Positions 339 to 5,200 of a stretch of DNA of 40,569 nucleotides are shown one piece after another (the first letter of the stretch is position 1; each line of letters starts with the position of its first letter). The notes beneath the pieces were generated by a model that worked only from the letters and a program-made list of their open reading frames with translations, was not told the DNA's origin and ran no database searches. The translations under genes and the position numbers were made by a program. The DNA comes from Nitrosopumilales archaeon (GTDB lineage: Archaea > Thermoproteota > Nitrososphaeria > Nitrososphaerales > Nitrosopumilaceae): contig QYPM01000033.1 of the NCBI GenBank assembly GCA_007280465.1, positions 1-40,569 of the forward strand, given 5' to 3'.

Positions 339-1877
339 TTATCGAGTCATCTGAGAGGCCGTAATTATTTTTTTCCAGGGACCATCAGGAACATTATCAA
401 AATCAACAAACTGCCAGCTGACTTGGTTTTTACCTTGATGATATAATCCGAGATAATCTCTTACTGCTGGAGATACATCTAGTCCTGCATTGTTATTGAA
501 TTTGTTTACAGGAGGAAAAGTTCCAAAAACATAATTTTTATCATCATACTCAAAGGGTCCAGCATCTTCCCATTGGGCATATACGGTCTTGTTGCCTTCT
601 ATAATTTTGATCCATTTGTTTTTTACCATGGATTCAGAATCATTCCAGTTCTTTTCATGTGACCAGTATACGGTGGAATTTGCATCTGACTTTCTTGAGC
701 CATCACTAGAAAAATCATCATATGGTAAGGCAAAGTAAAATGGATTCTCAAGTGGAATAAATTTGGCAGGCAAGTATCCAATTCTATTAGTGGGATCATC
801 CACTCCACCAAAATGTTCTACCCATTTGGAATCCCATGCACTGGATAAATTATCATTGTATTGATTGTCTTTACTTGCAGATTCGCCAGACCAAAAATAT
901 GTTGTCGTGACATTTTGGTGTAAAAGATATTTTGAATTTGTTTCTAATTTTGAGTTATAGGTTACAATGTTCTTGCTTTTCAAAAAATTTACTGTATTAA
1001 TTATAGTACCGTCTGTTATGTTTCCGCGCATGTACCACTCAAAGACTCTATCAAGCCAAGCAGGATGTTTTTGTATATAGTTGTCATTTTTTGGAATCTC
1101 ACTCATTGTAACAATCTTGAGTCCATCATTTTTTACTAGATCAATTACTGAATCAAGCTGGCCAATTCGTGTCTGATTTATTGAATTTACATAGTCAAGC
1201 ACATGTCTTGAGGAAAAGTCTTGAGGATGCATCATTACTACAGCAAAGCCATATTTTGTTATACTTCTTAGAATCTTGGCATGAGCATACTCGGGGGTGT
1301 AGTCAATCCAGTTAGTATTGTCATCATTTACTGCGCCAATCTCTGCAGTCTCTGGCAACCTATAGAGAGAAACACCAGATAACGGATATGGCGGATGGTC
1401 TATGGTCTCATTAGCACTGAGATATCCAAGTTTTTGCTGAACCAGTGCATGCATCGTATCATTATTAATATCATCATATGGTGCGATAAAGCCAGCTGGA
1501 GTTATTCCAAGTAAGGATATCACCTTTTGATTGGTCTTGTCTAGCAAATATTCTTGGGTAGGTTCCATATGTAAAGGAAAATGTTCGTGGTTCCATCCAT
1601 GATTTGCAATTTCTATTTCAGGACTAGAACCAATTTTATTTTTTATAAAATTGACCATTGATGCATCATTACCAAAATAATTTCCAATTATTCCAATAGT
1701 CATTGAGGCATTTTTTTTGTGAAATTCGTCAATTACGCCCATCTGCACATTGTTTAGCCAATAGTCTTGAATGTCATCGAGCCTAAATGCAACACACATA
1801 CAAGAGTCTGCGGCATATGAAATCTGAGCCAGTCCCCCAAACAGAACAAGTATCAGGGATAGAAAAATAATTTTCAA
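339..1877 (-). CDS. secreted polysaccharide deacetylase (NodB-like) family protein
   Basis: Signal peptide MKIIFLSLILVLFGGLAQISYA. Motifs FRLDD, NHGWNHE, FIAPYDD, MMHPQDF match the NodB-homology metal-site pattern. Confidence 0.75.
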   Translation of the reverse strand: MKIIFLSLILVLFGGLAQISYAADSCMCVAFRLDDIQDYWLNNVQMGVIDEFHKKNASMTIGIIGNYFGNDASMVNFIKNKIGSSPEIEIANHGWNHEHFPLHMEPTQEYLLDKTNQKVISLLGITPAGFIAPYDDINNDTMHALVQQKLGYLSANETIDHPPYPLSGVSLYRLPETAEIGAVNDDNTNWIDYTPEYAHAKILRSITKYGFAVVMMHPQDFSSRHVLDYVNSINQTRIGQLDSVIDLVKNDGLKIVTMSEIPKNDNYIQKHPAWLDRVFEWYMRGNITDGTIINTVNFLKSKNIVTYNSKLETNSKYLLHQNVTTTYFWSGESASKDNQYNDNLSSAWDSKWVEHFGGVDDPTNRIGYLPAKFIPLENPFYFALPYDDFSSDGSRKSDANSTVYWSHEKNWNDSESMVKNKWIKIIEGNKTVYAQWEDAGPFEYDDKNYVFGTFPPVNKFNNNAGLDVSPAVRDYLGLYHQGKNQVSWQFVDFDNVPDGPWKKIITASQMTR

Positions 1878-1958: not shown

Positions 1959-3437
1959 GTGTTTAGATTATACATCGTGACTGGAATTAAAACTGTAAAA
2001 GTAGATCGTATCCAGATACTACTCGTTTGTGCAATCTTTTCGGTCCTATTTTTTACAGTATATCTAATGAAGACAAATCTCACGCTAGTCTCACTTGCCT
2101 TTGCGGCGTTTATCATGTTCTATCAACTTCTTAGCGCAAGAGGCAATCTCTCATCAAAATTCAAGTATGGATCAAGATTGCCGTCTCCGTTTGCAGCAAT
2201 AATGATTGCACTTCCATTTGTTCTGGGCACGGTTGCAGCATACGAAGGATTTGCAATATGGGAGTCCCCTGCTAGGATCATAATACTTTGGGGAATGACT
2301 ATAACATTTTGGAGTACTCTGATGTTTGTACCACTTGCAGTATACAGCAAATTTAAGGAAGATTTGAAGCCAGAACCGTCTACATATCCAACTCTTAGCA
2401 TACTTGTACCTGCATATAATGAAGAAAAAGTAATTGCAAGAACAATAGAGGGATTGCTTGATACAGATTATCCTGACAAGGAAATAATTGTAATTGATGA
2501 TGGAAGTAAAGATGACACATTAAAGATTGCAAACACATTCAAAAATAAAGTCAAAGTATTACACAAAGAAAACGGAGGAAAAGCCTCAGCTTTGAATCAT
2601 GGAATTGCATTTGCAAAAGGCGAGATAGTTGCAATAGTTGATGCAGATACAATCGTTGGTAGAAATGCTCTAAAACAACTAGTAAAGGGATTTTCTGGTG
2701 ACAAGAACGTTGCAGCAGTTGCAGGAAATATCAAAGTGAGAAACAGAATGAATTGGCTTACATGGACGCAAGCTCTAGAGTATGTAGCTGGAATTGAGAT
2801 AATTAGAAGAGCCTTTGACTTTTTTGGCTCAATTACAATAGTACCTGGAGCATTAGGGGCATTTAGAAAGAAAGCGCTAGAAGATGTTGGAACTTATCAC
2901 AAGGATACATTGGTTGAGGACTTTGATGCTACAATCAAGGTCTTAAAATCTGGATTTGTAATTTCAGGAAGTACAACATCAACTGCATATACAGAAGCAC
3001 CCCAGTCTTTTCATGATTTTTACAAACAACGAAAGAGATGGTATCGTGGAAACTTGCAAGTATTATCAAGACATGCAGAGACTTTGTTTAATCCAAGATA
3101 TGCATTTTTGTATAGAATTGCATTTCCATTTATGATAATCTCCATGGTAGTCCTACCATTTGCAGGGCTTGCCGTGATAGCCACTTCGATATATGAAGTG
3201 TTGATTGGAGATGGAATTTTTGTAGTAGAGATGTTTGGCCTGTTTATTTTACTACAGACTTTAATGTCATCTCTTGCTGTCCGAATAGACAGAGAGGATC
3301 CTAGATTGATACTATTTTCGCCATTTCTAGTCATAGGGTACAAGCAAATTGTAGACATTTTACTCATATTTGGATGCCTCCAAGAAGTTTTCAGGACAAA
3401 GGCAAAATGGACCAGCGCAAAGAGGATTGGAGTATGA
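1959..3437 (+). CDS. processive family 2 glycosyltransferase (polysaccharide synthase-like membrane protein)
   Basis: N-terminal TMs, LVPAYNEEKVIARTIEGLL, VIDDGSKDDT, VDADT, LVEDFD, QRKRWYRGN (QxxRW) and C-terminal TMs. Confidence 0.85.
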   Translation: MFRLYIVTGIKTVKVDRIQILLVCAIFSVLFFTVYLMKTNLTLVSLAFAAFIMFYQLLSARGNLSSKFKYGSRLPSPFAAIMIALPFVLGTVAAYEGFAIWESPARIIILWGMTITFWSTLMFVPLAVYSKFKEDLKPEPSTYPTLSILVPAYNEEKVIARTIEGLLDTDYPDKEIIVIDDGSKDDTLKIANTFKNKVKVLHKENGGKASALNHGIAFAKGEIVAIVDADTIVGRNALKQLVKGFSGDKNVAAVAGNIKVRNRMNWLTWTQALEYVAGIEIIRRAFDFFGSITIVPGALGAFRKKALEDVGTYHKDTLVEDFDATIKVLKSGFVISGSTTSTAYTEAPQSFHDFYKQRKRWYRGNLQVLSRHAETLFNPRYAFLYRIAFPFMIISMVVLPFAGLAVIATSIYEVLIGDGIFVVEMFGLFILLQTLMSSLAVRIDREDPRLILFSPFLVIGYKQIVDILLIFGCLQEVFRTKAKWTSAKRIGV

Positions 3438-5200
3438 AATCATTATCCAGTATAGCATTGATTGTAATATCATCAATAACAATTTTGGTAACTATTCCAG
3501 CTTATGGCGATACAATGGGCTCTGTTGCAGTCACACTAACATACACAAATGGTGACACTGCTGATTATTGGCCAGTATCATTGAAAATTTATCAAGACTT
3601 TGACAAAACACCTTACAAAGAAATTGTATCGTTATCAGGAAATCCATTTAACATTGTTTCATTACCTGTTGGTCACCAGTACAAAATTGTAGCATATACA
3701 AATGACGAGTACTCTAGTACAGAATATGTCAACTTACAACAATCTCATCAAGATATTACGATAAAATTACCATTGTCTGGCGGGATGCGTGTTAATGTTG
3801 TCTATAATGATGGATTGACCCCAATTTCAAATAGTACCGTGTTTGTCAAATCTCAAAATAACAAAATCTGGTCTCATAGCTCAACAGACCCCAATGGGAA
3901 AACAATGCGTTTTTGGTTAGAGCCCACAGTATTAGAAAACGATCATTACATAGTAGATGTGAAAATTGGCAACAATCTAACATATACTCAATCACCAATA
4001 TTTCTTAGACCCGGTGTATCACAGGAGATAAAAGTTGTAACGTCTTGGCCGCCTTTGATTAATTCTCTTATTACTATCAATGTCATGGATCTCCAATTGC
4101 ATAAAGTATTGCCATCTCAAGGAAAATTTATTGTAAATCTTTTGGATGAAAATCAAAACAAGATTGCGGAATCCCCAGTAACATCACGTGGTCAAGCATA
4201 TTTTTCCAATTTGAAAGTTGGAGAGTATGTCTTGCAAGTTATTAGAATGGATGATAATTCAGAATGGAGTACCTCCAGGATAGTAATGGATGGCTCTATA
4301 CTATCATTTGAAATAGTAGAAAATCAAAAAAACATATCCCCACAGCCTGTAGTTCCATCTACTCCACAGCCTGTAGTTCCAAAGTTTAACGTTACAAACT
4401 GCAACTGCGTGGTATTTCGATTGGACAATGTTCAGGATTATTGGTTAGATAACGTCCAAGCTAAAGTCATAGATACTTTTTACAAGAATAATGCCAGTCT
4501 TACAATCGGAATAATTGGAGGGGATTTTGGCAGTGATACTAAATTAAAAGAATCAATCAAGCCAAAGGTTCAGTCAGGAGTAATTGATGTGGGAATCAAT
4601 GGATGGAATTTTGAAGATTTTACTACTTCCAATGAAACACAGCAGGCCCAACTATTACAGTATTCAAAAAATAAAATATCTGAAATATTTGGCATCGCTC
4701 CTTCTGTGTTTATACCACCGTATGGCAAATTCAACAATGATACATTTTATGCCATGATGGATAATCGCATTTATTTCATAAGTGGCAATTTGGAATCTTT
4801 GAACCCTCCATCTGGGGCAAATAAAATCTACTATTATCCTCCCACTGTATTTACTGGAACAAGCAGCCAAGGCAATACTACTAAGAGTATAACAAATGAC
4901 ATGATACTTGCAGACATACAAAAAAATGTAAAAGCTAAAGGATATGCCATGGTTACAATCAACTTTCAAGACTATGCACAAAATAATGGTACAGTCAAGA
5001 TCAACATGCCAGATAGTGAAAAAATTCTCAAACTTCAATCTTTGATTGATGATATAAGAAATAACGGATACAGAATTGTTACAGTCAAAGAGATTTCAAA
5101 CACACCCAGTGTTCCAGAATTTGGATACTTGGCCACAATTACACTGATGTTGTCAATTGTAGCTGTAATCATAACAGGAACCAGAATTAAGAGAAATTAG
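3434..5200 (+). CDS. secreted polysaccharide deacetylase-like protein with PEFG-CTERM sorting tail
   Basis: ATG at 3434 gives signal peptide MKSLSSIALIVISSITILVTIPAYG. Ig-like/carrier N-terminal part, P-rich linker, deacetylase-like fold, C-terminal VPEFGYLATITLMLSIVAVIITGTRIKRN. The track start at 3374 overlaps the upstream gene and is less likely. Confidence 0.75.
   Translation: MKSLSSIALIVISSITILVTIPAYGDTMGSVAVTLTYTNGDTADYWPVSLKIYQDFDKTPYKEIVSLSGNPFNIVSLPVGHQYKIVAYTNDEYSSTEYVNLQQSHQDITIKLPLSGGMRVNVVYNDGLTPISNSTVFVKSQNNKIWSHSSTDPNGKTMRFWLEPTVLENDHYIVDVKIGNNLTYTQSPIFLRPGVSQEIKVVTSWPPLINSLITINVMDLQLHKVLPSQGKFIVNLLDENQNKIAESPVTSRGQAYFSNLKVGEYVLQVIRMDDNSEWSTSRIVMDGSILSFEIVENQKNISPQPVVPSTPQPVVPKFNVTNCNCVVFRLDNVQDYWLDNVQAKVIDTFYKNNASLTIGIIGGDFGSDTKLKESIKPKVQSGVIDVGINGWNFEDFTTSNETQQAQLLQYSKNKISEIFGIAPSVFIPPYGKFNNDTFYAMMDNRIYFISGNLESLNPPSGANKIYYYPPTVFTGTSSQGNTTKSITNDMILADIQKNVKAKGYAMVTINFQDYAQNNGTVKINMPDSEKILKLQSLIDDIRNNGYRIVTVKEISNTPSVPEFGYLATITLMLSIVAVIITGTRIKRN
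4340..4381 (+). repeat. two copies of an 18-nt repeat, 24-nt period, coding PQPVVP linker
   Basis: CCACAGCCTGTAGTTCCA at 4340-4357 and again at 4364-4381. Confidence 0.9.

Follow-up and report, generated by a model that had tools for sequence, protein, structure and literature searches.

Gene content and domain architecture

The window, that is, the whole stretch of 40,569 nucleotides analysed here, comes from a Nitrosotalea-type archaeal MAG of 916,573 bases (63% complete), and Candidatus Nitrosotalea records are its closest named relatives; Nitrosotalea are ammonia-oxidising archaea of soil. At the locus of interest, a divergent NodB deacetylase gene is followed by a gene for a GT2 polysaccharide synthase and by a gene whose product combines an Ig-like region with a second NodB-fold domain (Table 1).

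Table 1. Positions in the window of the genes and protein features discussed in the text
Feature	Position	Strand	Details
Divergent NodB deacetylase	339..1877	-	complete D-D/HxxxH/H motifs; PF01522 4.9e-08; C-terminal domain of ~225 aa
Processive GT2 polysaccharide synthase	1959..3437	+	PgaC/IcaA-, cellulose- and hyaluronan-synthase-like by profile, PDB matches and motifs
Putative Ig-NodB pseudo-deacetylase	3434..5200	+	588 aa; ATG at 3434
Predicted N-terminal signal/TM helix, residues 1-25	3434..3508	+	helix 2-18 in model; hydrophobic start in aligned orthologues
Ig/CnaB-like beta-sandwich region, residues 26-300	3509..4333	+	about 270 residues; nearly all-beta in model
NodB-fold domain without metal ligands, residues 320-556	4391..5101	+	D331 kept; N332, N389, F393, N510; no His
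PEFG-CTERM-like tail	5114..5197	+	PEFG, hydrophobic stretch and basic end in sequence; TIGR04296 15.1 bits (cut-off 25)

A preliminary description of this DNA had presented the 3434-5200 protein as a paralogue of the neighbouring deacetylase with a NodB fold, Ig-like domains and a PEFG-CTERM tail. PF01522 matches both proteins, in the 3434-5200 protein at residues 324-441 (5.1e-11, 43 bits, cut-off 23.1). The AlphaFold2 model of this protein reached a mean pLDDT of 78.6 (NodB core mostly 78-93, with a weaker stretch at about residues 450-490), and Foldseek matched it to CE4 enzymes with TMt up to 0.78 as well as to the CE4 pseudoenzymes 7bkf and 4m1b and to PuuE (3cl6), so that, as far as the model tells, the NodB fold is kept. 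The Ig-like domains agree with the predicted fold of the N-terminal half, for which Foldseek returned BcpA, TIE and Gram-positive pilin-type Ig folds at low TM-scores; Pfam matches to CarboxypepD_reg, SpaA and Y_Y_Y were weak and under cut-off. The same region is joined to other C-termini in genomes G058, G123, G133 and G145, where the matches are limited to query residues ~22-310, and therefore looks like a reusable surface module.

As to the tail, its three elements are visible in the window, TIGR04296 stays under its cut-off and most orthologues end otherwise. In the loci L005-L015, L035-L038 and L044, the C-terminus consists of one or two modules of ~45 aa with the pattern (I/V)PxWVKxxA..W..G.ISDxEF..xIxYLV, for which a Pfam search returned no family. 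PEFG is present in the window, L034 and L045, and a PEFR form in L041. A PEFG ending is thus of local occurrence, common to the 3434-5200 protein and few orthologues. An exosortase-like protein in the window's genome gave a weak match (23.6 bits vs a cut-off of 25.7).

Missing metal ligands in the NodB domain

The neighbouring deacetylase (CE4, PF01522) was taken as the reference for the motif comparison. Its ligands Asp35, His93 and His97 and its motif-5 His217 are replaced by Asn332, Asn389, Phe393 and Asn510 in the 3434-5200 protein. The motif differences quoted in the preliminary description (RLDD/RLDN, NHGWNHE/INGWNFE and MMHPQDF/TINFQDY) are exact, and the loss of the metal ligands that it deduced from them stands with one correction, namely that the catalytic-base Asp (the first of the two D in motif 1) is still present as D331, as it is in 19/20 orthologues. 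Residues 320-556 contain no histidine at all, which excludes another His-based metal site in the window's NodB domain. A substitute ligand set, which the same description had named as a possible refutation, is not apparent in the sequence comparison either, the conserved Cys323/Cys325 and most conserved Asp/Glu residues being common to the pseudo-deacetylase and deacetylase groups.

NodB domains gathered from relatives were reduced to a non-redundant set of 20 orthologues from Nitrosotalea and a sister genus and 12 deacetylase-type (DAC) domains. The Asp-His-His triad is complete in none of the 20 orthologues vs all 12 DAC-type domains, which without exception retain D-D, HxxxH and the motif-5 His. 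None of the three triad ligands remains in 18 orthologues and only the Asp in the other two, and the motif-5 His has given way to N, S or A in all 20. The substituting residues are in turn conserved (N332 in 17/20, N389 in 16/20, F393 and F511 in 20/20). The 12 DAC domains have 52 invariant columns, of which 36 persist in 80% or more of the orthologues and 16 are lost; D35, H93, H97 and H217, four positions set beforehand by the CE4 motifs, all fall among the lost columns (hypergeometric C(16,4)/C(52,4) = 0.0067, a guide only, as the sequences are kin and not independent). The motif-3 Arg position holds a hydrophobic residue in both groups and is therefore of no use for telling them apart. The loss of the metal site is fixed throughout the lineage, beyond drift, and is not a change in one strain.

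In the sister-genus loci L014 and L015, the motif-1 Asp pair is kept, the first His has become Ser, the second Phe and the motif-5 residue Ser, a partial state consistent with stepwise ligand loss. Considering that Asp331 and the motif-3 Pro are both retained in the 3434-5200 protein, some other chemistry is still conceivable.

Phylogeny and selection

In an IQ-TREE tree of 81 NodB domains, the 20 orthologues formed a single clade (support 100/100) apart from the DAC clade (97/89); the deeper branches were weakly supported. Pairwise Nei-Gojobori dN/dS was computed with our own script. For the NodB domain, comparison with the closest relative gave 0.08, and two others, in which dS is saturated, gave about 0.10 (up to 0.11); over the whole gene, dN/dS was 0.13-0.19 for the pseudo-deacetylase gene and 0.09-0.12 for the deacetylase. 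The NodB domain of the pseudo-deacetylase is under purifying selection, and the constraint on it is no weaker than that on the Ig region (0.096-0.106 vs 0.137-0.177, dS saturated). The orthologue in Nitrosotalea sp. FS (L042, 2069-4054) is broken over several frames, by decay or by sequencing error. With the fold retained in the model, the catalytic residues gone from the sequence and the gene maintained, the assignment of the 3434-5200 protein as a pseudoenzyme is strongly supported.

A polysaccharide synthase as the constant partner

The GT2 protein scored 216.7 bits against TIGR03937, under the PgaC/IcaA cut-off of 422.3; its PDB matches were chondroitin, cellulose and hyaluronan synthases, and DAD and QRKRW motifs are present along with several TM-like stretches. 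In the window, L034 and L044, the TGA stop of the GT2 gene and the ATG of the pseudo-deacetylase gene overlap as ATGA, and gaps of 2-108 bases were measured at other loci. At loci with a readable flank, the GT2 gene adjoins the Ig-NodB gene or lies within about 1 kb of it, with GT2 upstream and in the same orientation at almost every locus (in L081 the strand differs), and this pairing holds in Nitrosotalea as well as in the genera with tandem-NodB proteins. The conserved partner of the Ig-NodB protein is the GT2 synthase, not the divergent deacetylase.

In the tandem-NodB proteins of other genera, the triad is complete in 0/18 d2 domains and 4/17 d1 domains, and erosion is therefore a property of the whole synthase-linked Ig-NodB family. 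The d1 domains (e.g., in L053, L057, L060 and L073) mostly read HSWNN, an intermediate state in which only the second metal His is gone and D-D and the motif-5 His are kept.

Many Nitrosotalea loci have a DAC gene with all motifs intact next to GT2 and in divergent orientation, and a divergent neighbour is conserved in many loci of Nitrosotalea and the sister genus (L035-L037, L039, L040, L046, L047, L052 and L071). The conservation of this neighbour would suit a role of the pseudo-deacetylase mainly as a scaffold or allosteric activator of the 339-1877 enzyme, an active/inactive pair as in many pseudoenzymes, and the tandem proteins, in which d2 is eroded and d1 less so, point the same way. 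However, four of the nine near-complete Nitrosotalea genomes that carry the pseudo-deacetylase gene have no DAC-type relative; three of these (G044, G091 and G108) carry other PF01522 proteins and the fourth, G085, has no other PF01522 protein, so that a set division of labour does not hold in every genome. Moreover, one metal ligand is missing from 13/17 d1 domains of the tandem proteins as well, and a service confined to the neighbouring deacetylase is unlikely.

The C-terminal ~225 aa of this deacetylase (window 342-1019, minus strand) gave no match in a Pfam search, and its C-terminus ('YAQWEDAGPF...NAGLDVSPAVRDYL') bears, by eye, a likeness to an RlpA-type double-psi barrel. The model of the enzyme had an overall pLDDT of 51 and was built on 7 sequences only, and the NodB part alone was used. 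In N. bavarica (L034), a NodB protein of a different family with intact TFDD/SHTMDH is encoded at 1634-2623 on the minus strand, two genes from GT2 and behind a DnaJ-like gene, and is possibly a replacement of the divergent deacetylase. In TA_20 (L043/L070, 1-819), the deacetylase is interrupted by a stop, which reflects decay or a sequencing error.

The synthase linkage also bears on whether the protein might be a purely structural surface or S-layer adhesin, whose function would reside in the Ig repeats, the NodB domain being no more than a ligand-free rigid spacer. Such a role would fit the recurrence of the Ig region with other C-termini, but it sits poorly with a NodB domain that is no less constrained than the Ig region in the dN/dS values given above and that stays linked to a polysaccharide synthase; we consider it distinctly improbable.

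Comparison with known systems

CE4 peptidoglycan and chitin deacetylases such as SpPgdA retain the D-H-H metal site and the motif-5 His. Fold and motif order of the 3434-5200 protein are the same as in SpPgdA (2c1g), HP0310 (3qbu) and 3rxz, and the orthologue profile matches 2c1g at 2.9e-05, whereas the archaeal protein has neither that metal site nor a motif-5 His. In the PNAG system (PgaC-PgaB/IcaA-IcaB), a processive GT2 is combined with an exported NodB partner that works on the emerging polymer, and the NodB domain of PgaB/IcaB is active. The archaeal locus shares with this system the GT2 similarity and a NodB partner that is predicted to be exported and may act on the emerging polymer, and differs from it in that the partner has no metal site and the GT2 falls under the PgaC/IcaA cut-off.

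BA3943 of Bacillus (7bkf) is a CE4 pseudoenzyme according to its structure title, BA0150 (4m1b) has been described as catalytically inert, and EcCDA (2VYO) is a suspected pseudo-CE4 (PMC10967932). As in the 3434-5200 protein, the NodB fold of BA3943 and BA0150 is present and its active site disabled; unlike these bacterial proteins, the archaeal one lacks all metal ligands and the motif-5 His, is fused to an Ig region, occurs lineage-wide and is coupled to GT2. CE4 pseudoenzymes were already known in Bacillus, and the one described here is an archaeal, lineage-wide, synthase-linked variant. No paper on an archaeal Ig-NodB pseudo-deacetylase family was found in the open-access literature; in Nitrososphaera viennensis, upregulated exported deacetylases were mentioned in passing (PMC11561398).

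The PuuE allantoinase, one of the fold matches, is another NodB-fold protein without the metal site, having no motif-1 Asp pair and lacking one motif-2 His. By analogy, the 3434-5200 protein might be a metal-independent enzyme, which the retention of D331 would favor. Nevertheless, PuuE retains its motif-4 Asp and motif-5 His (PMC10967932); the latter is Asn, Ser or Ala in every orthologue here and the window's NodB domain is devoid of His, making such an activity very improbable. A decaying pseudogene, or loss of the deacetylase in a single strain, was rejected as scarcely credible: one orthologue is indeed split, but the frames are open in the other full-length orthologues, the 20 orthologues carry like replacements and dN/dS is 0.08-0.19.

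Proposed role and implications

Considering that the metal site is lost throughout the lineage and the shape is kept, the protein probably holds or guides a polymer instead of removing acetyl groups. The reading that we favor, with some reservation, is that of a synthase-coupled, surface-anchored pseudo-deacetylase that would bind nascent N-acetylated exopolysaccharide. The preliminary description had proposed a surface-displayed, glycan-binding pseudo-deacetylase, an interpretation that the analysis supports, with glycan binding as its putative element; the synthase as conserved partner had escaped that description. The GT2 synthase would extrude an N-acetylated beta-linked polymer, a chemistry guessed from its sub-cut-off GT2 similarity. 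The pseudo-deacetylase would be secreted and anchored at the surface, as its signal helix and its sub-cut-off PEFG-like tail suggest, and the Ig region would convey its NodB domain to the outer surface of the cell. There, the dead NodB domain may bind the emerging acetylated chain in its old substrate groove and either retain it or pass it on, and separate competent deacetylases, including the divergent 339-1877 enzyme where present, would act on the polymer. Asp331, Trp391, Pro429 and Tyr336/Trp337 are retained in the pseudo-deacetylase and are candidate sugar contacts. The wider proposal that a dead NodB domain is a standard, unrecognised part of archaeal exopolysaccharide export, a deacetylase domain of the synthase-linked Ig-NodB family having repeatedly turned into a dedicated carbohydrate-binding module across ammonia-oxidising archaea, is tentative and on balance rather doubtful.

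Single proteins have received hardly any study in the exopolysaccharide biology of ammonia-oxidising archaea, and only passing mentions were found. Automatic annotation would label the 3434-5200 protein a polysaccharide deacetylase and would credit these archaea with an activity that is probably not supplied by this gene. Should the protein bind polymer as proposed, a synthase-coupled part of the polymer-handling machinery has been identified, and the complete, one-ligand-lost and fully lost domains would form a natural series leading from an enzyme to a binding module.
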